The notes under the pieces are model-generated. The model saw nothing but the letters and a program-made list of their open reading frames with translations, did no database searches and was not told where the DNA came from. A DNA stretch of 64,000 bases, from the NCBI RefSeq assembly GCF_029589495.1, contig NZ_JAAIVF010000002.1, positions 1 through 64,000 on the forward strand, in the 5' to 3' direction. Positions 40,782 to 63,712 of this stretch are shown one piece after another. The DNA is from Speluncibacter jeojiensis. GTDB taxonomy: Bacteria; Actinomycetota; Actinomycetes; Mycobacteriales; Mycobacteriaceae. Position numbers and translations under genes: made by a program. Position 1 is the first letter of the stretch. Each line of letters opens with the position of its first letter.

Positions 40782-42118
40782 GTCCGCACCCCTCCGGTTC
40801 GTCGCAGCTTCCACATTCCCCGGGTCCGCAGCGGCCCGCGCGGGGCCGCGATCCCGGACGGCACCGTCACCAGGTGCCGATCCTCGAGCGCCGCGGTGTA
40901 GCTGGCCAGCAGCCCGTCCGCGGTGTGCCGCCAGGAGAACCCGGCCGCATGCTCGGGCGCCGCCTGCGCCAGCCGCGCCCGACGGCCCGGATCCGCGACC
41001 AGCGACGTCAATGCCGCCGCCCAGTCGTCGGTGCGGTGCCCGGCCACCAGCAGCCCGGTCTCGCCGTCGCGCACCGCGACCCCGAGCCCGCCGACGTCGG
41101 CCGCGACGACCGGCGTCCCGCAGGCCTGGGCCTCGATGGCCACCAGCCCGAACGACTCCGAATAACTCGGTACGGCCACGAGGTCCGACGCTCGGTACAC
41201 CTGCGCGAGCCGCGCGGGCGGCTGCGGCGGCAGGAACGTGACCCGGTCGGAGATGCCGAGCTGCGCGGCCAGTTCGATCAGCGCCTGCGGCCGGTCCAGC
41301 CCGGTGCCGGACGGACCGCCGACCACCAGCACCCGGACCGCACGGTCCGGCATCGCCGCCGCCGCGCGCAGCAGCACGTCCGGCGCCTTGAGCGGCTGGA
41401 TCCGCCCGACGAAGGTCACGATGGTCTCGTCCGGGTCGAGGCCCAGCTCCGCACGGGCCGCCGCGCGGTTGCCGGGGTGGTAGCGGGTCAGATCCGCACC
41501 GGGGGCGACCACGTCGACCTGCTCTGGGTCGGCACCGTGGATCGAGACCAGCTGGTCGCGTTCCTCGACGGTGTTGGCGATCAACCGGTCGGCCTCGTCC
41601 ACGACCTGCTGCTCACCGATCTGCCGCGCCGCCGGCTCGGGGGTGTCCCCCTCCGCCAGCGACGCGTTCTTCACCGCGGCCAGGGTATGTGCGGTGTGCA
41701 CCAGCGGCACCCCCCACCGGTCGCGGGCCAGCCAGCCGACCTGCCCGGACAGCCAGTAGTGCGAATGGACCAGGTCGTAGTAGCCGCGCTCGCGGCGGGC
41801 CTCCTCGCGCAGCACCCCGGCGGCGAACGCGCACAGCTGCGTGGGCAGGTCGCGCTTGTCCAGCCCCTCGAACGGCCCGGCGACCACGTTGCGGACCAGC
41901 ACTCCGGGGGCCGCCTCCTGCACCGGCTCGGTCGCCGAGCTGGTGGCGCGGGTGAAGATCTCCACCTCCACACCCCGCTGCGCGAGCTCGCGGGCGGTCT
42001 GCAGCACATAGACGTTCATGCCGCCGGCATCCCCGGTGCCGGGCTGCGCGAGCGGCGAGGTGTGCACGGACAGCACGGCGACGCGGCGCAGCGCCGGCGC
42101 CCGACCGGGTGATGCCAT
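40778..42118 (-). CDS. mshA: D-inositol-3-phosphate glycosyltransferase MshA
   Basis: The 446-aa GT4 glycosyltransferase performs the first step of mycothiol synthesis, moving GlcNAc from UDP-GlcNAc to inositol-3-phosphate. It shows [13 protein letters not shown] at the acceptor site and [17 protein letters not shown] (E-x7-E) at the nucleotide-sugar site. ATG shares a base with the hydrolase stop (TGATG); a GTG at 42121 is possible. Its presence supports a mycothiol-making actinobacterium. Confidence 0.95.
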
Positions 42119-53101: not shown

Positions 53102-54028
53102 TCAGACGATGTTGGCCCGCTTGAGCAGGAACTTCGACGGACCGCCTACCAAGCCGACCGAGTCGAGGAACTGCACGGTGCCGGCGCAGCCGTTGCGGAT
53201 CATCGACTGGTGATGCGGGTTGTTCGCGGCGACCTTGCGCGCCTCCTTCGGATCCAGCCCCGCCGCCTTGTAGGCGTCCTTGTGTACCAGCGTCTTGACG
53301 ACGAAATACGCGGTTCCGCCCATCAGCAACCGCGCATAGGCGCGCTGGACCCGGCCCAGCTCCGCGGCCTTTCGGATGGTCTCCTCGCGGGCGAAGCGGA
53401 TGTGCCGCGCCTCCTCGGTGACGTGGATCTTGCTCACCGAGCGGGTGATCGGCTGGACGCGGTCGTCCTTCATGAAGTCGCGCTGCATCATGTCGAGAAT
53501 CTCCTCGGCGAACAGCGTGCCGCCGTAGGCGAGCGACCCCGTCGAGGTCGACTTGAAGAACGCGCCCAGCCACATGATCGCCTTGTTGGGCTTGTAGTTG
53601 GGGATACCGAACTTCTGGAAGGCGCGCGCGAACATCGTCGAGTGCCGGCACTCGTCGGCGATCTCGGCCAGGCCGAACATCACATGGTTGCTGTCGTAGC
53701 GCTGCCAGTAGACGTCGCGCAGGATCATCTGCATCAGACACATCTCGAACCAGATGCCGGTGGAGCTGATGCTCGCGGCCTCGTGCTTGCTGAGCGTGAC
53801 GCGCTGCTCCTGGGTCATCGACTCCCACATCTCGGTGCCGTACAGGCTGCACCACTCGGGGGTCATGCCGTAGAGCGAGTCGTCGATCGGCGCCTCCCAG
53901 TCGACCTCGACCGTCGGGTCGTACGACTTACGGGCCGACGAGGCGAGCAAGCGGGCCGCGGTCTCCTGACGTCCCCCGTGCTTGGACCGGCGCCCCTGCG
54001 CCACGGTCCGATCCTCGGTGATCGACAT
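53102..54028 (-). CDS. AurF-like diiron oxygenase
   Basis: The 308-aa protein belongs to the AurF/DUF non-haem diiron family. The ligand set of AurF is present: Glu95, Glu126-x2-His129 (ADECRH), Glu175 or Glu176 (FAEE), and His202-x3-Glu206-x2-His209 (HVTEEARH). AurF is a p-aminobenzoate N-oxygenase; here the substrate is unknown and the enzyme may act on lipids or amines. The ATG at 54028 has GGGAG 5 nt upstream. A 14-bp dyad (54069-54082) lies upstream. Confidence 0.88.
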   Translation of the reverse strand: MSITEDRTVAQGRRSKHGGRQETAARLLASSARKSYDPTVEVDWEAPIDDSLYGMTPEWCSLYGTEMWESMTQEQRVTLSKHEAASISSTGIWFEMCLMQMILRDVYWQRYDSNHVMFGLAEIADECRHSTMFARAFQKFGIPNYKPNKAIMWLGAFFKSTSTGSLAYGGTLFAEEILDMMQRDFMKDDRVQPITRSVSKIHVTEEARHIRFAREETIRKAAELGRVQRAYARLLMGGTAYFVVKTLVHKDAYKAAGLDPKEARKVAANNPHHQSMIRNGCAGTVQFLDSVGLVGGPSKFLLKRANIV

Positions 54029-54068
54029 CATCGCTCCCAATCCGATCCAGAAACCCGGTACTTCCGGT

Positions 54069-54623: not shown

Positions 54624-55370
54624 TCAGGCCTTCGGTGCAGCCTTCTTGGCGGGCGCCTTCTTCGCAGGGGCCTTCTTCGCGGGGGCCGGCTTCGCGGCGG
54701 CCTGCACCCGCTTGGAGGCGGCGGTGGCGCGGGCCTGCGCCTTCTCACCCAGGTCGGTCACCTTGTCGGCGACGTCGGCGCCGGCGTCGACGACCCGGTC
54801 GGCAGCCTCGCCCGCGGCCTCTTCGAGGTCCTCGGCGGCGTCGAGCGCGGCGTCGGAGATACGGCCGGAGGCGCGACCGGCGAGCTTCGCGGCGCGCTCG
54901 CCGACCTCACGGGTCTTGGCCGCGACGGTGCCGAGGGCCTCCTCGGTCAGCTCGCGGGCGTCCGCGACGGCTGACTCGGCACGCTCACGCGCATCGGCGA
55001 CGGCAGCCTCGGCGCGCTCGATGTTCTCCTCGACCAGCGGCTGCTTGCGGATCCGGTCGACGGCCTCCCCGCCGCGCTCGGCGAGCGAGTTGTACAGGTC
55101 GGTGGCGACCTGGATGTAGGCCTCGGCGACCTTGCGCAGTTCCTCGGAGGTGAACTTCTCGCGCAGTTCGGCGATCTGCTCGGGGAACTCGTCGGGGAAG
55201 GACTGCAGGCGCTCGCGGGTCTCGTCGGCGCGGACCTGCCAGTCGGTGGAGGCCGACTCGGCGCGCTCACGCAGCTTGGTGGCGATGTCGGCGACGGCCT
55301 GAACGGCGATGTCACCGGCACCGACGGCCGCGAGCAGCGGCGTCCTGACGTTCTCGATGGGGTTGGACAT
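54624..55370 (-). CDS. hbhA: Heparin-binding haemagglutinin HbhA-like protein
   Basis: The 248-aa protein is a long amphipathic coiled coil (about 10-215) followed by a Lys/Ala/Pro-rich tail with repeated PAKKA units, the heparin-binding part in M. tuberculosis. It is surface-associated and also linked to lipid bodies in related species. It is longer than the 199-aa Rv0475 and its tail is shorter on Lys repeats. ATG at 55370 with GGGAGAT upstream. Preceded by the XRE regulator, as in Rv0474-Rv0475. Confidence 0.92.
   Translation of the reverse strand: MSNPIENVRTPLLAAVGAGDIAVQAVADIATKLRERAESASTDWQVRADETRERLQSFPDEFPEQIAELREKFTSEELRKVAEAYIQVATDLYNSLAERGGEAVDRIRKQPLVEENIERAEAAVADARERAESAVADARELTEEALGTVAAKTREVGERAAKLAGRASGRISDAALDAAEDLEEAAGEAADRVVDAGADVADKVTDLGEKAQARATAASKRVQAAAKPAPAKKAPAKKAPAKKAAPKA
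54640..54699. repeat. 15-bp tandem repeats in the hbhA tail
   Basis: Three to four units of GCCTTCTTCGCGGGG (54640, 54655, 54670, degenerate at 54685) encode the PAKKA tail. Such in-frame repeats can expand or shrink, changing heparin-binding strength. Confidence 0.75.
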
Positions 55371-55437
55371 TGCGGATCTCCCGGTCATGTGGGTTGGTGT
55401 GTTTGCTGATCGCCCGGCGCAGTGCGGACGTTCGAGA

Positions 55438-56102: not shown

Positions 56103-57374
56103 TCAGCCCACGAACAACTGAGAGATGCCGAAGATCACCAAGCCCGCGAGGGCGCCCACCACGGTCCCGTTGATCCGGATGAACTGGAGGTCGCGACCGG
56201 CCTGCAACTCGATCTTCCGGCTGGCCTCCTCCGCATCCCAGCGCGCCACCGTGTCGGTGATCAACCCGGTGATCTCGTGCGCATAGTTCTCGACGACATA
56301 GCGCACCCCGTCGGACAACCACCGGTCGAACTTCGCGCGCATCGCGTCGTCGTCACGCAGGCGCTCACCGAATCGGGTGACGTACTCGACGAGCTTGCGG
56401 CGCAGCGTGCTCGACGGGTCCTCGACGGAGTCCGTGATCAGCTTCTTCGCGACCCGCCACGCGGCCTCCGCGGCACCGGTGATCTCCTTGCGCCCCATCA
56501 CCTCCGCCTTGATCTTCTCGGCCTTGGCCATCGTCTCCGGGTCGTGCTGCAGATCGTTCGCGAACTCGACGAGGAACCGGTTGGCGGCCTGCCGCACCTC
56601 GTGGTCGGGGTCCGACCGCACCTTCCAGGTGAACTCGACCAACTCGCGGTGGATCTTCTCGCTGAGCAGCAGGTCGACGAACCGCGGAGACCAGGTCGGC
56701 GCGTCCCGGGTCACGATCCGGTCGATCGTCTCCTGCGAGCCCAGCGCCCACTGGTACGCCCGTTCGGCGAGCAGCTCGATCAGCGGCAACTGCCGGTTCT
56801 CCTTGATCAGCTCTTCGAGAACCTTGCCGATCGGCGGTCCCCACGCGGGCTCGGCCAGCCGGCGCACGATCGTGGCGTCGATGATCTGCTGCACGTCCTC
56901 GTCGCGGAGCACCGTGACCATGCCCAGCGCCAGCGTCGAGAGTTCCGACGCGACCCGCTGGGCGTGGTCCGGCTCCGCCATCCACGTGCCGACCCGCAGC
57001 GGGATCCGGGCGCTGTCGAGCTTGGCGGTCACCACGTCCGGGGCCAGGAAGTTCTCCCCGACGAACGAGCCCAGGCCGGTCCCGAGCTGGTCCTTCTTGC
57101 GCTTGATGATCGCCGTGTGCGGGATCGGCAGCCCGAGGGGGTGGCGGAACAACGCGGTCACCGCGAACCAGTCGGCCAGCGCGCCCACCATGCCGGCCTC
57201 CGCCGCGGCCTTCACATAGCCCACCCAGACCCCGGCGCCGGCGTGCTCACGCCACAGCGCCACCACGTAGACGACCGTCGCCAGCACCAGGAATCCGGTC
57301 GCGACGGTCTTCATCCGCCGCAGATCTCGCACCTTGGCCGTGTCGTCGAAGCTCATCAGCTGCACGTCCGCCAT
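56103..57374 (-). CDS. DUF445 family membrane protein (Rv0473 type)
   Basis: The 423-aa protein has an N-terminal membrane helix (about 24-42), a long helical cytoplasmic or periplasmic body and a C-terminal membrane helix (VVGALAGLVIFGISQLFV). The motif GALADWFAVTALFRHPLGLPIPHTAII is the family hallmark. No function is established. It begins opposite the TetR gene. Confidence 0.9.
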   Translation of the reverse strand: MADVQLMSFDDTAKVRDLRRMKTVATGFLVLATVVYVVALWREHAGAGVWVGYVKAAAEAGMVGALADWFAVTALFRHPLGLPIPHTAIIKRKKDQLGTGLGSFVGENFLAPDVVTAKLDSARIPLRVGTWMAEPDHAQRVASELSTLALGMVTVLRDEDVQQIIDATIVRRLAEPAWGPPIGKVLEELIKENRQLPLIELLAERAYQWALGSQETIDRIVTRDAPTWSPRFVDLLLSEKIHRELVEFTWKVRSDPDHEVRQAANRFLVEFANDLQHDPETMAKAEKIKAEVMGRKEITGAAEAAWRVAKKLITDSVEDPSSTLRRKLVEYVTRFGERLRDDDAMRAKFDRWLSDGVRYVVENYAHEITGLITDTVARWDAEEASRKIELQAGRDLQFIRINGTVVGALAGLVIFGISQLFVG

Positions 57375-57483
57375 TGTTCACCCACCGCTGGTCGGGACCA
57401 TCCGGACCTCTCGACACACCGGAACACATAGGGTGGAGCCGTCAGGCACGCGCTACCGCGTCCGACGACCACCCTGCGAAACG

Positions 57484-58254
57484 ATGGACATGGCAAAGGC
57501 ACAGACAGATTCGGCCGATCTCGACCCGGCATCGAAGCGGGATCACAAGAGGGGCTCCGACAAGACGGGAGCGGCGAGGATGGACGGGCGCAAGCGCCGC
57601 TGGCAGGAACACAAGCTGGCCCGGCGCGAGGAGCTGGTCGACGGCACCCTCGCCGCGATCAGGCTGCGCGGCAGCGACATCGGCATGGACGAGATCGCCG
57701 CGGAGATCGGCGTGTCGAAGACCGTGCTCTACCGCTACTTCACCGACAAGTCGGACCTGACCGGCGCCGCCACCACCAGGTTCATGGAGACCCGGCTGGC
57801 GCCCGCACTGGCCGAGGCCCTCTCCCAGGACCTCGACGAGTACGGCCTGTGCAAGGCCGCGATCGGCGTCTACGTGCGCACGGTCGCGGACGAGCCGGAG
57901 ATCTACCCGTTCGTGATGGGGATGACCTCGTCGTCGGGGACCGGTGTCCAGGACGCGGTCGCGAAGAGCGAGCGGGTGATCGCGGAGATGCTCTCCACTG
58001 TGCTCGGCGAGCACCTGCGGGCGCGCGGGATGGACTCCGGGGGTGCCGAGCCGTGGGCCTACGCCGTGGTCGGCGGCGTGCAGCTGGCCACCCACCGGTG
58101 GATGACCCACAAGACCATGTCGGTCGACGCGCTGATCGACTACCTCGTGATGTTCGGTTGGAGCGCCATCGCCGGGATCGCCGCCTCAGGCGCCTCGCCG
58201 AGCCGGTTCAACGCGATGGACCATCCGCTGGTCCGGCCGGAAGACGAGGACTGA
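57484..58254 (+). CDS. TetR-family regulator (Rv0472c type)
   Basis: The 256-aa TetR protein has a basic disordered start (~40 residues), then an HTH (MDEIAAEIGVSKTVLYRYF) and a C-terminal ligand domain. It is divergent from the DUF445 gene (109-bp gap), as with Rv0472c/Rv0473. Start at 57484 or 57490; no clear ribosome site at either. The operator could not be located. Confidence 0.88.
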   Translation: MDMAKAQTDSADLDPASKRDHKRGSDKTGAARMDGRKRRWQEHKLARREELVDGTLAAIRLRGSDIGMDEIAAEIGVSKTVLYRYFTDKSDLTGAATTRFMETRLAPALAEALSQDLDEYGLCKAAIGVYVRTVADEPEIYPFVMGMTSSSGTGVQDAVAKSERVIAEMLSTVLGEHLRARGMDSGGAEPWAYAVVGGVQLATHRWMTHKTMSVDALIDYLVMFGWSAIAGIAASGASPSRFNAMDHPLVRPEDED

Positions 58255-58354: not shown

Positions 58355-60652
58355 CTAGCCCGCCTGCTCGGCGGCCGCCCGCCGGCGCAGCCGCCGGGCC
58401 GCCGCCACCAGATTGCGCAGCGACGGTTCGAGCTGCCAGTAGTGCCGCGTCTTGAGCCCGCCGTCCGGATTCGCCCACAGCCGGTCGATATCGATCGCGT
58501 CGGCGGCCCGCGTGAGCAGGTCGTCGAGCTCGTCGATGTCCGGGATACGCGCCGACCGGCTCTCGTACACACCCGGCCCCACCTCACGGGACAGCCCGGC
58601 ATCCTGGAGTGAGTCGAGCACCCAGTTGATGGTGCGGGTCGAGATGATGTACGTGACGTCCGCGTCGAGGTTCTCGATCGCCTCGACGACGGCGTGCACC
58701 TGCGAGAGCCCGATGTGGGTGTGGATCTGGGTCGACGGTTGCGCCCCGCCGGTGGCCAGCTTGAATGCGCCGACCGCCCAGTCCAGGTACTCGTCGCGGC
58801 CGGACTGCCGGCGCGGCAGCAGGGTCCGGATGGCCGGCTCGTCGACCTGGATGATCGTGATGCCGGCCGCCTCGAGGTCGGCGATCTCGTCGCGGACGGC
58901 GAGCGCCAGCTGATCCGCGGTGTCCTTGGCCGGCTGGTCCTCCCGCACGAACGACAGCGCCAGCATCGTCACCGGACCGGTGAGCATGCCCTTGACCGGC
59001 TTGTCGGTCAGCGACTGCGCATAACCGACCCAGTCCACCGACATCGGCTTCGGCCGGGAGACGTCGCCGTAGATCACCGGCGGCCGAACCGCCCGCGAGC
59101 CGTAGACCTGCACCCAGCCGTTGCGGGTGACCGCGGCGCCGTCGAGCTGCTCCGCGAAGAACTGGATCATGTCGTTGCGTTCGACCTCGCCGTGCACGAG
59201 CACGTCCAGCCCTATGTCCTCCTGGAGCCGGATGACCCGCTCGATCTCCTGGTGCACCCGCTTCTGGTAGTCCTCCCAGCTCAGCCGGCCCTGACCCAGG
59301 TCGTACCGGGCCTTGCGGATCTCGGTGGTCTGCGGGAACGAACCCAGCGTGGTGGCCGGCACGACCGGCAGGCGGTGCGCCTCCTGCTGGGCCAGGCGAC
59401 GCTGCGCGTAGGGCACCCGCGCGCGGTCGGCGTCGGTCACCGCGGCGACCCGGGACCGGACCGCCTCGTCGGGCAGCACCGCGGACGCGGACCCGGCGGC
59501 GCGCCACTTCTCCGGCGCACCGTCCTTGAGCGCGCGGGCCAGCGCGACCGATTCGCCGACCTTCTGCTTGGCGAACGCCAGCCGCCCCGCGACCGCATCG
59601 TCGAGGTCGTACTCGGAGAGCACGTCGTAGGGGACGTGCATCAACGAGCACGAGGTCGACACGACGAGGTCGGGGATCACCGCGTACAGCTGCTGCAGGT
59701 ACTCGAGCGTGGCGAGCCGGTCGACCCGCCAGACGTTCTTGCCGTCGATGACGCCGGCGTACAGACGCTTGCGCCGCATGCCGGGGATCGCGGCGAGTTC
59801 CTCGGCGCTGCGCCGCACCGTGACCAGATCCAGGCCGATCGCCTCGACGTTGGTCGACGCGAGGATCTCCAGCGCGGGCCCGAGGTCGCCGTACGGTCCG
59901 GTCACCAGCAGGCGCGGGCGGAGCGGCGCATTGGTCAGCGAGTCGTAGGCGTTGCGGAACTTCTCCAGCTCCTCTTCGCTGCGGTCCAGCGTGAACCACG
60001 GCTCGTCGAGCTGGATGCAGGTCGCGCCGGCCCGGGCGAGCTGCTCGAACAGCGCCTCGTACTGCGGCAGCAGCGCGTCGAGCAGGTCGAGCGTGCGGAA
60101 TCCCTCGGCCGCCTCGGGGCCGGGCTTGGACAGCATCAGCAGCGACATCGGCCCGAGCAGCACCGGCCGCAGTTCGACGTCGTGCTCCTTGGCCCGGTGG
60201 AACTCGTCGAGCAGGGCCTCGGAGCGCAGCGAGAACGTGGTCTGCTCGTCCAGCTCCGGCTGCCGGTAGTAGTAGTTGCTGCTGATGAACTTGACCAGTT
60301 CCAGCGGCGGGAAGTCCTCGCGCCCGCGGGCGAGCGTGAAGTAGAAGTCCAGCGGGTCGAGGTCGGCCTCCAGCGAGGCGAACCGCCGCGGGACCGCGCC
60401 GAACAGCAGCGCGTTGTCGAGGACGTGGTCGTAGAAGGAGAAGGTGTTGCCGGGCACCTGGGTCAGGCCCGTCGCCGCGAGCTCGAGCCAGGTCTGCTCC
60501 TGGATCTCCCTGCCCACTGCGAGCAGCTCGTCCTTGCCGGACTCGCCGTGCCAATACGACTCCAGTGCACGCTTGAGCTCACGGCGCGGACCGATCCTCG
60601 GGTAGCCGAGAACGCTCGAGCCGATACCTGCCGGAACTGCGGAGCTGGTCAT
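58355..60652 (-). CDS. MetE-family protein with degenerate zinc/catalytic site
   Basis: The 765-aa protein has the full two-barrel layout of cobalamin-independent methionine synthase, with conserved TTTLGSFPQTTEIR, DVLVHGEVERNDM and KGMLTGPVTML. Aligned to E. coli MetE (+5 numbering), His646 (His641) remains, but Cys643 is Gly648, Glu665 is Ile670, Cys726 is Gly731 and catalytic His694 is Arg699. The zinc that activates homocysteine therefore cannot be bound in the usual way. The reading frame is intact and not obviously decaying. It may do other chemistry or be regulatory. It is inserted between the Rv0472c- and Rv0468-like genes. No B12 riboswitch seen upstream. Confidence 0.85.
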   Translation of the reverse strand: MTSSAVPAGIGSSVLGYPRIGPRRELKRALESYWHGESGKDELLAVGREIQEQTWLELAATGLTQVPGNTFSFYDHVLDNALLFGAVPRRFASLEADLDPLDFYFTLARGREDFPPLELVKFISSNYYYRQPELDEQTTFSLRSEALLDEFHRAKEHDVELRPVLLGPMSLLMLSKPGPEAAEGFRTLDLLDALLPQYEALFEQLARAGATCIQLDEPWFTLDRSEEELEKFRNAYDSLTNAPLRPRLLVTGPYGDLGPALEILASTNVEAIGLDLVTVRRSAEELAAIPGMRRKRLYAGVIDGKNVWRVDRLATLEYLQQLYAVIPDLVVSTSCSLMHVPYDVLSEYDLDDAVAGRLAFAKQKVGESVALARALKDGAPEKWRAAGSASAVLPDEAVRSRVAAVTDADRARVPYAQRRLAQQEAHRLPVVPATTLGSFPQTTEIRKARYDLGQGRLSWEDYQKRVHQEIERVIRLQEDIGLDVLVHGEVERNDMIQFFAEQLDGAAVTRNGWVQVYGSRAVRPPVIYGDVSRPKPMSVDWVGYAQSLTDKPVKGMLTGPVTMLALSFVREDQPAKDTADQLALAVRDEIADLEAAGITIIQVDEPAIRTLLPRRQSGRDEYLDWAVGAFKLATGGAQPSTQIHTHIGLSQVHAVVEAIENLDADVTYIISTRTINWVLDSLQDAGLSREVGPGVYESRSARIPDIDELDDLLTRAADAIDIDRLWANPDGGLKTRHYWQLEPSLRNLVAAARRLRRRAAAEQAG

Positions 60653-60884: not shown

Positions 60885-61775
60885 TCACTTGCCGGAGGAC
60901 TGACCGTTCTCGGGGTACTTGTAGAACCCGTGACCGGACTTCTTGCCCAGCCGGCCGGCCTCCACCATGCGCAGCAGCAGCGGTGGCGGCGAGTACAGCG
61001 GCTCCTTGAACTCCTCGTACATCGAGTCGGCGATCGCCTTGACCGTGTCCAGGCCGATCAGGTCCGCCAGCTTGAGCGGACCCATCGGGTGGGCCAGGCC
61101 GAGCGAGATCGTCTTGTCGATGTCCTCGACGCTGGCGAAGCCCGACTCGACCATCCGGATGGCCGAGAGCAGGTACGGCACCAGCAGCGCGTTGGCGATG
61201 AAACCGGAGCGGTCGGCCGAGCGGACGACCTCCTTGCCGAGCACGTCACGGGCGAACGACTCTGCCCGCTCGGCGACCTCGGGGCTGGTCATCAGCGTGG
61301 TGACCAGCTCGACCAGCGGCAGCACCGGCACCGGGTTGAAGAAGTGCATGCCCACGACCCTGTTGGACTGCTGGGTCGACATGCCGAGCTTCATGATCGG
61401 GATGGACGAGGTGTTCGAGGCGAGCACTGCGTTGGGGTCGGTGACGACCTTGTCGAGCTCGGCGAAGATCTCGGTCTTGACCTTCTCGTCCTCGATGACG
61501 GCCTCTACCACGAGCTGGCGGTCGGCGAAGTCACCGAGGTCGGAGGTGAAGCGCAGCCGCCAGGCGGCCTGCTCACGCTCGCGCTCCGTGATCTTGCCGC
61601 TGCTCACGCCGCGGTCGAGCGAACGCAGGATGCGGGCGCGGCCCGCGGCCGCGAGCTCGCGGGTGGCCTCGTACACCAGCACGTCGACGTGCGCACGGGC
61701 GCACACCTCCGCGATACCGGCACCCATCTGTCCGGCGCCGATGACTCCGACTCGCTGGATCTTCTCGCTGGTCAC
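60885..61775 (-). CDS. fadB2: 3-hydroxybutyryl-CoA dehydrogenase FadB2
   Basis: The 296-aa enzyme has the NAD loop VGVIGAGQMGAGIAEV and substrate/catalytic segment VVGMHFFNPVPVLPLVE, with the His-Glu dyad of the family. It oxidises 3-hydroxyacyl-CoA (beta-oxidation) or runs in reverse. GTG start with GAGGAG upstream. It follows aceA by 109 bp as Rv0468 follows Rv0467, fitting use of fatty acids. A 232-bp gap to the MetE-like gene holds no recognisable signal. Confidence 0.95.
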   Translation of the reverse strand: MTSEKIQRVGVIGAGQMGAGIAEVCARAHVDVLVYEATRELAAAGRARILRSLDRGVSSGKITEREREQAAWRLRFTSDLGDFADRQLVVEAVIEDEKVKTEIFAELDKVVTDPNAVLASNTSSIPIMKLGMSTQQSNRVVGMHFFNPVPVLPLVELVTTLMTSPEVAERAESFARDVLGKEVVRSADRSGFIANALLVPYLLSAIRMVESGFASVEDIDKTISLGLAHPMGPLKLADLIGLDTVKAIADSMYEEFKEPLYSPPPLLLRMVEAGRLGKKSGHGFYKYPENGQSSGK

Positions 61776-61884: not shown

Positions 61885-63174
61885 TTAGTGGAACTGCCCC
61901 TCTTCGGTGGAGCCCTTCAGCGCCGCCGTCGAGGTGTTCGGGTCGACCGTGGTGGCGATGGCGTCGAAGTAGCCGGCGCCGACCTCACGCTGGTGCTTGA
62001 CCGCGGTGAAGCCGCGCTCGGCAGCAGCCTTGAACTCGCGCTCCTGCAGGTCGACGAAGGCGGTCATGCCCTCGCGGGCGTAGCCGTGCGCCAGGTCGAA
62101 CATGCCGTAGTTGAGCGAGTGGAAGCCGGCGAGGGTGATGAACTGGAACTTGAAGCCCATCGCGCCGAGCTCGCGCTGGAACTTCGCGATGGTCGCGTCG
62201 TCCAGATGCGCCTTCCAGTTGAAGGACGGCGAGCAGTTGTAGGCCAGCAGCTGGTCCGGGAACTCGCTGCGAACCGACTCGGCGAAGTGCTTGGCGACCT
62301 CGAGATCCGGGACACCGGTCTCCATCCAGATGAGGTCGGCGTACGGGGCGTAGGCCTTGGCACGCGCGATGCAGGACTCGACGCCGTTCTTGATGCCGTA
62401 GAAGCCCTCGGCGGTGCGGGTGCCGTCCAGGAACGGGCGGTCGCGCTCGTCGACGTCGGAGGTCAGCAGGGTGGCGGCCTCGGCGTCGGTGCGGGCGATG
62501 ACCACGGTCGGGACACCGGCGACGTCGGCCGCGAGACGGGCCGAGGTCAGGGTGCGGATGTGCTGCTGGGTCGGGATGAGCACCTTGCCGCCGAGGTGGC
62601 CGCACTTCTTCTCAGACGCGAGCTGGTCCTCCCAGTGCGAACCGGCGACACCGGCCGCGATCATGGCCTTCTGCAGCTCGTAGACGTTGAGGGCGCCACC
62701 GAAGCCGGCCTCACCGTCGGCGACGATCGGGGCGAGCCAGTTCTCGACCGAGGTGTCACCCTCGACCTTGGCGATCTCGTCGGCGCGCAGCAGCGCGTTG
62801 TTGATGCGGCGGACGACCTGCGGCACCGAGTTGGCCGGGTACAGGCTCTGGTCCGGGTAGGTGTGGCCGGAGAGGTTCGCGTCGCCGGCGACCTGCCAAC
62901 CGGACAGGTAGATGGCCTTCAGGCCCGCGCGGACCTGCTGCACGGCCTGGTTGCCGGTGAGGGCGCCGAGGGAGTTGATGTAGTCCTCGTTGTTCAAGAG
63001 GTCCCAGAGGATCTCCGAGCCGCGGCGCGCGAGGGTGGCCTCTTCGACGACGCTGCCCTGCAGCTTGACGACCTGCTCTGCGGTGTAGTTACGAGTAATG
63101 CCCTTCCAGCGCGGGTTGGTGTCCCAATCCTGCTGGATCTCAGCGGCGGTCTTCGGCTTGCCGACGTTCGACAT
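61885..63174 (-). CDS. aceA: Isocitrate lyase
   Basis: The 429-aa glyoxylate-cycle enzyme splits isocitrate into glyoxylate and succinate, needed for growth on fatty acids, cholesterol or acetate. Active-site KKCGHLGGK (catalytic Cys) is present. Length and sequence match Rv0467 (icl1). ATG with GGGAG upstream. The long upstream region has RamB-like motifs. Confidence 0.97.
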
Positions 63175-63712
63175 CGAGGCTCCCGTTTCTCATGATCATG
63201 CCTTGGCCCTCAAGGCAGGTACGACTGCGACGGAGGGGGCGGTTTCAAGCCCCGACACCGAAATCCGGAAGCCGGATCAGTGCTCGCGATTTCGCAACCC
63301 CGTACCAGCGCTTGGCCTGTACTACACAGACGATGGCACACGGTAAACACGCAGGTCCACCCCTTGCAAATGCCAATCTTCGCCATGTTTTCATCGCATT
63401 TGGCTAATTTTGCAAAGCAAGCTTGGCGATATCGGTAGATCAAGTTACCGGCCAGTAGGCGAAAAGTGGGGTCGGCCTGCGGTTTTGATGTCAACCGAGG
63501 TGACGGACACCGCGGCCCGACGGCCCGGCCGGCGCCCCTGCGCACCCGCCCGACGACACCGCCCGAAGCGACCGATGTGGCCGTTCTCACCTCGCCCGTC
63601 CGGCTACTGTCGACAGCGAGCGGGCGCGGTGCGGCCTCACGGTCCGCCGACCGACCGCGATCCAGACCTGTGACGAGGGTCCGTACGGGACCCGGGGAAG
63701 CGAGAGACGCCG
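63175..63712. promoter_or_regulatory. aceA / WS-DGAT divergent control region (538 bp)
   Basis: No gene is supported here (the open frame 63210-63731 is not codon-like). On the minus strand -35 TTTACC (63342-63347), 17-nt spacer and -10 TAGTAC (63319-63324) may be the aceA promoter, giving a ~140-nt leader with a small ATCCGG/CCGGAT hairpin (63263-63277). Two TTTGCAA motifs, 63363-63372 and 63408-63417, resemble RamB sites. The stretch 63290-63440 is notably AT-richer than its surroundings. Confidence 0.5.

Follow-up and report, generated by a model that had tools for sequence, protein, structure and literature searches.

A MetE-like paralogue without the zinc site beside isocitrate lyase in one family of mycolic-acid bacteria, and its possible place in C2 metabolism

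Next to the isocitrate lyase gene of Speluncibacter jeojiensis lies a full-length homologue of the methionine synthase MetE in which most of the zinc ligands of that enzyme are replaced, which raises the question what such a protein does. The gene is situated in the window, i.e. the whole stretch of 64,000 nucleotides that was analysed. A preliminary description had reported an intact frame under selection with the substitutions Cys643 to Gly648, Glu665 to Ile670, Cys726 to Gly731 and His694 to Arg699, His641 being kept as His646. The frame was indeed intact and is read on the minus strand (60652..58355, 765 aa), and all five residue assignments agreed with the codons, which were read directly in the window DNA.

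A MetE paralogue of one bacterial family

The zinc-less MetE-like paralogue is called MetEL in this analysis. It carries both MetE Pfam domains (PF08267 and PF01717), and the absence of the N-terminal barrel, which is the trait of the core methionine synthases (MesA/MesB/MesC/MesD), was not found. Zinc is bound in E. coli MetE by His641, Cys643, Glu665 and Cys726, and the amino acid is anchored by Ser433, Glu484 and Asp599 (PMC7857596); the roles of the folate, pterin and acid residues come from structures of T. maritima MetE (PMC539065). In Table 1 the zinc ligands, His694 and the anchors are given in E. coli MetE numbering.

Table 1. Positions of MetEL, its diagnostic residues and the surrounding genes. 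Positions are those of the window unless stated otherwise; counts out of 78 refer to MetEL orthologues and counts out of 23 to canonical MetE.
Feature	Position	Strand	Details
MetEL, MetE-like paralogue without zinc site	58355..60652	minus	765 aa, ATG start, full length, both (beta/alpha)8 barrels
His646, sole zinc ligand kept (E. coli His641)	58715..58717	minus	His in 78/78
Gly648 at zinc ligand Cys643	58709..58711	minus	Cys 0/78 (Gly 35, Thr 34, others); canonical Cys 23/23
Ile670 at zinc ligand Glu665	58643..58645	minus	Val 72, Ile 6 of 78; canonical Glu 23/23
Gly731 at zinc ligand Cys726	58460..58462	minus	Gly 77, Phe 1 of 78; canonical Cys 23/23
Arg699 at His694 (T. maritima His672, candidate proton donor)	58556..58558	minus	Arg 74, His 3, Lys 1 of 78; role from PMC539065
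Leu566 at pterin-stacking Trp (T. maritima Trp539)	58955..58957	minus	Trp 0/78; Arg 68, Leu 5, Phe 4, Gly 1
Thr610 at pterin-binding Glu (T. maritima Glu583)	58823..58825	minus	co-varies with position 566
Ser438, kept, anchors substrate carboxylate (E. coli Ser433)	59339..59341	minus	78/78
Glu489, kept, anchors substrate amino group (E. coli Glu484)	59186..59188	minus	78/78
Asp604, kept, anchors substrate amino group (E. coli Asp599)	58841..58843	minus	78/78
fadB2, 3-hydroxybutyryl-CoA dehydrogenase	60885..61775	minus	directly upstream, same strand; NF005875 above cut-off
aceA, isocitrate lyase, first gene of the conserved block	61885..63174	minus	NF011645 and TIGR01346 above cut-off
CTTTGCAAA, RamB-site-like motif upstream of aceA	63409..63417	minus	short match, suggestive only
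ramB, divergent	67906-69312 of the contig, outside the window		
mshA	40886-42085	minus	TIGR03449 above cut-off; about 16 kb from MetEL; synteny anchor to rhodococci
canonical metE copies of the same genome	C12:527458-529680 and C1:1544209-1546470		beside MetH

A set of 78 distinct orthologous sequences, drawn from upwards of 20 genera in a single GTDB family, was compared with 23 canonical MetE sequences. The canonical residue was present at all four changed positions in each of the 23, and among the 78 orthologues Cys648, Glu670 and Cys731 were never found and Arg699 was found in 74. Because the ligand losses are shared by 78 orthologues and canonical MetE keeps the residues throughout, the substitutions are not sequencing errors.

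A sample of 61 relatives comprised 37 genomes of the same GTDB family, of which 24 (21 genera) had an orthologue at 60-77% identity, and 24 genomes from other families of the order, none of which had one; canonical MetE was 46-52% identical to MetEL. Well over 100 of 401 genomes drawn from the same family also contained it, and no high-scoring MetEL was obtained outside that family among 396 genomes across the phylum. By name the carriers include Tomitella, Rhodococcus and Nocardia, besides the window species. The orthologues formed a single clade in the tree (support 100/100) on a stem branch of 0.82 changes per site. Their frames were open in essentially all cases across the 21 genera of the first sample, and dN/dS values of 0.05-0.34 within the clade indicated purifying selection, as had been presumed. 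MetEL is an old MetE paralogue of single origin that is fixed in one family of mycolic-acid bacteria as the gene behind aceA-fadB2. The preliminary description had missed this family-wide paralogue and its conserved neighbourhood, and the losses that it had rightly noticed proved to be wider.

It had also asked whether the genome holds a canonical metE or metH. The window genome encodes two MetE copies with intact zinc ligands and one MetH. MetH and/or a canonical, zinc-ligand MetE was present in 24/24 carrier genomes of the 61-genome sample; MetEL is therefore never the only candidate, and its being the sole methionine synthase is ruled out. Two carriers (G007 and G036) have no MetH and do have canonical MetE. 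In genome G003 (C1:1747257-1750774) the MetH match is divided over two adjacent, slightly overlapping frames (model positions 2-674 and 675-1182), through either a frameshift or a two-subunit MetH. A cobalamin riboswitch precedes only the C1 copy of metE in the window genome (gathering threshold). No Rfam match, hence no B12 riboswitch for MetEL, was obtained within the window, and control of MetEL by such an element was ruled out.

Against TIGR01371 MetEL scored 873.6 bits, below the cut-off of 929.95, and against NF003556 it scored 941, above the cut-off of 541. As the latter model is passed, the label 'methionine synthase' is to be expected from annotation pipelines; the gene is likely to be called so across Rhodococcus, Nocardia and relatives, with metabolic models and proteome papers inheriting the name. 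To judge from its residues, MetEL is almost certainly not a methionine synthase. Its fold belongs to a known family, but it should not be filed under that enzyme, since defining catalytic features are absent.

The aceA-fadB2 neighbourhood

Neighbouring genes were identified with NCBIfam models. In the loci with enough flank, fadB2 (47/47) and aceA (46/46) were situated directly upstream of MetEL on the same strand, and a divergent ramB was found upstream in 21/40. A zinc-type alcohol dehydrogenase was nearby in 29 of 49 MetEL loci. This invariant aceA-fadB2 neighbourhood is the strongest functional clue; in the openly accessible literature no paper was found that treats the gene beside aceA. 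The corresponding locus of M. tuberculosis, which we take to be icl1-fadB2 with ramB (Rv0465c, Rv0467 and Rv0468, then umaA), shares the aceA-fadB2 order and a nearby ramB. The position after fadB2 is there presumably occupied by umaA, and the only MetE of that species is, we assume, canonical.

A motif resembling what we take to be the RamB-site consensus was present in 22 of 46 aceA upstream regions and in none of 46 fadB2-MetEL gaps. These gaps vary from an overlap to about 400 nt, and shortly behind fadB2 some Nocardia gaps (loci L062 and L066) have a strong hairpin, GGCCACCGTCATC...GATGACGGTGGCC, which could be a terminator. Co-transcription is therefore not general, and MetEL may have its own promoter in many loci. 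A scan of the window for terminators and promoters gave nothing informative. In a Rhodococcus-group genome (L146, 12200-12330, minus strand) the gap of 108 nt contains an inverted repeat, CTGTGCGCG...CGCGCACAG, with about 26 nt between its arms, which is a possible regulator site.

Downstream of MetEL in the window (53102-54040, 54624-55388, 56103-57374 and 57334-58254) the genes include those for a DUF445 protein, a TetR-type regulator with a weak FasR match and an apolipoprotein-like helical protein, as well as a frame resembling a diiron oxygenase. The position of the apolipoprotein-like protein recalls what we take to be that of mycobacterial HbhA.

An induced 'MetE' in Rhodococcus qingshengii IGTS8

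In a study of the desulfurizing strain R. qingshengii IGTS8, a 'MetE' (IGTS8_peg5907; 2 Cys and 7 Met) is reported as 190-273-fold up on dibenzothiophene versus sulfate and among the top ten of the sulfur proteome, and its induction is presented as a response to sulfur starvation (PMC8557817). In eleven genomes whose membership of the Rhodococcus group was inferred from named relatives, canonical MetE had 4-5 Cys, two of which are the zinc ligands. MetEL of the same group had 1-2 Cys, with exactly 2 Cys and 7 Met in three of those examined. IGTS8_peg5907 and MshA (peg5948) are 41 gene numbers apart, a spacing that fits the roughly 38 kb between mshA and MetEL in rhodococcal genomes; in G106, a complete genome, canonical metE is some 650 kb away. 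By its Cys and Met content and its distance to mshA, the induced 'MetE' of IGTS8 is probably MetEL. If MetEL is no methionine synthase, conclusions on methionine supply that were drawn from it, such as the 190-273-fold 'switch to MetE' in IGTS8, are wrong.

According to that study, dibenzothiophene was dosed at 0.5 mM from a 100 mM stock in ethanol, and ethanol is not mentioned there for the sulfate cultures, although both cultures may have had it (PMC8557817). The ethanol carried in was calculated to be 0.5%, or about 86 mM. IGTS8 is able to use ethanol as sole carbon source for growth (PMC9426449), and in a close relative aceA is required for oligotrophic growth and two oligotrophy genes are strongly induced by ethanol (PMC9502362). 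Because dibenzothiophene came in ethanol, what is seen as induction of the IGTS8 'MetE' may be the aceA neighbourhood responding to C2 carbon.

The altered pocket and its candidate functions

MetEL matched solved MetE structures over the full length. Its AlphaFold model (mean pLDDT 84.8) aligned with MetE structures at Z 47-50, and with 4ztx at Z 50.2 over 749 residues (rmsd 2.0), so that the double-barrel fold is present in the model. This suggests that the fold is intact and that the chemistry is what has changed. Of the positions invariant in the canonical set (169 in 23 sequences), just 16 were lost in the orthologues, and 5 of these belong to the 14 residues of known function (hypergeometric P about 0.005). 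The homocysteine anchors Ser433, Glu484 and Asp599 were kept in 78/78 and the DM pair of the DMV element was invariant. Around the old active site Leu436, Glu697, Ser/Thr698, Ala701 and Leu741 are newly conserved; Glu697 and Leu436, together with Tyr254, are lineage-specific invariant pocket residues, and Arg699 was found in 74/78.

The folate-side motifs had been described as otherwise preserved. This is correct for the amino-acid anchors and for the groove of the polyglutamate tail (R24 in 78, K27 in 77, R520 in 78 and R523 in 78 of 78, equivalent to T. maritima Arg15, Lys18, Arg493 and Arg496). It does not hold for the pterin: the stacking Trp is absent in 78/78, the pterin-site Lys (T. maritima Lys104) is mostly Arg, and the pterin-binding Glu at position 610, kept in 67/78, is lost in 11 including the window gene, in whose clade it is Thr. 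Positions 566 and 610 changed as a pair in 78/78, with Arg and Glu or Asp in 68, Leu or Phe and Thr in 9 (the window gene among them) and Gly and Gln in 1, a covariation for which the tree requires no more than about two independent changes. The pattern suggests that Arg566, and no longer a pterin, is the partner of the acid at 610. Because of the general loss of the Trp and this covariation, canonical pterin binding looks gone.

Methionine synthesis by MetEL is very unlikely, as the zinc, the pterin stack and the candidate acid all appear to be gone. The retained amino-acid anchors and the new Arg point to a metal-free enzyme whose substrate would be an amino acid, combined with an anionic partner or a carboxylate. 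We therefore give somewhat better than even chances to the explanation that MetEL has lost the chemistry of methionine synthase and is a metal-free enzyme of the MetE fold serving C2 (acetate, ethanol, fatty-acid) or glyoxylate metabolism. At the mouth of the C-terminal barrel an alpha-amino acid would be held by S438, E489 and D604, and the zinc/thiolate site would be replaced by a metal-free Arg pocket (R699, and in most members also R566) that could accommodate an anionic partner or a carboxylate substrate. MetEL would then act on an amino acid tied to glyoxylate or C2 flux and not as a folate-homocysteine methyltransferase. More tentatively, and with chances a little short of even, it could be an undescribed glyoxylate/C2 enzyme, metal-free and pterin-independent, which converts an amino-acid substrate, is co-expressed with isocitrate lyase and has passed for methionine synthase in many genomes as well as in one published proteome. 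Growth on acetate, alkanes and fatty acids depends on the glyoxylate shunt, and MetEL would, if this is true, mark an unknown step linked to it and provide an experimentally tractable case of a MetE barrel repurposed without zinc. Against this best explanation counts the kept folate-tail groove, by which folate may still be bound.

The main rival, which we hold to be rather unlikely, is a non-catalytic pseudoenzyme that binds an amino acid (homocysteine, methionine or another) or folate polyglutamate, serving as a sensor, a sink or a partner of isocitrate lyase or FadB2. A metal site lost while the ligand anchors and the DM pair stay invariant, and a fixed place beside aceA-fadB2, would fit such a role. 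However, a reported place in the top ten of the IGTS8 sulfur proteome is high for a regulator if the identification holds; this abundance argues for an enzyme, short of proof. Moreover, the invariant E697, L436 and Y254 and the R699 of 74/78 resemble a new active site and not drift.

Less probable still is a zinc-free folate-dependent transferase that passes a one-carbon unit from polyglutamylated tetrahydrofolate to an amino acid. It is favoured by the tail groove, by the Glu610 of 67/78 sequences and by the level of 5-methyl-H4PteGlu3, which the IGTS8 study reports as lower in the later growth phases of a culture rich in 'MetE' (PMC8557817). However, the stacking Trp is lost everywhere, Lys104 is mostly replaced, the pterin Glu has gone in the window's clade, and where Glu610 is kept it is always paired with Arg566, as if recruited to a salt bridge; the candidate proton donor His694 is gone in most members as well. 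The preliminary description was thus borne out in expecting a function other than methionine synthesis, whereas its proposal that the protein binds folate and performs a different methyl transfer is not supported, as of the folate site the tail groove alone remains.

That MetEL is a zinc-free but working methionine synthase, as annotated, is very improbable. The NF003556 score (941 versus 541) and the complete MetE fold of the model are in its favour, but zinc activates homocysteine in the MetE enzymes studied (PMC7857596; PMC539065), the TIGR01371 score stays below its cut-off (873.6 versus 929.95), every carrier has another methionine synthase, and MetEL lacks the cobalamin riboswitch that precedes one of the canonical metE genes. 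A decaying duplicate, which could also show the loss of catalytic residues, has a negligible chance and is refuted by conservation, i.e. by open frames across 21 genera, purifying selection, new invariant residues and a fixed location.

Among the closest known systems, MetE itself (TIGR01371, NF003556; PDB 1U1H, 1XDJ, 4L6H, 4ZTX) shares with MetEL the double barrel, the amino-acid anchors and the folate-tail groove, with about 50% identity between MetEL and canonical actinobacterial MetE. MetEL differs from it by the absence of three of the four zinc ligands, of the candidate acid His694 and of the pterin-stacking Trp, by a score below the TIGR01371 cut-off and by another gene neighbourhood. 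The closest precedent is given by the MesB-like proteins of Chloroflexales, likewise members of the MetE superfamily that have lost the zinc residues, for which Price et al. (2021; PMC7857596) put forward a different function. They are, however, single-domain core-MetE relatives of phototrophs, whereas MetEL has both barrels, occurs in other organisms and has a glyoxylate locus. With the C-terminal barrel of the model, uroporphyrinogen decarboxylase and related metal-free barrels align at Z about 22-24, but with 10-14% identity, a single domain and no common motifs; they serve only as an analogy, showing that a related barrel can function without metal. Uroporphyrinogen decarboxylase (UROD) may descend from a zinc/homocysteine barrel (PMC539065).
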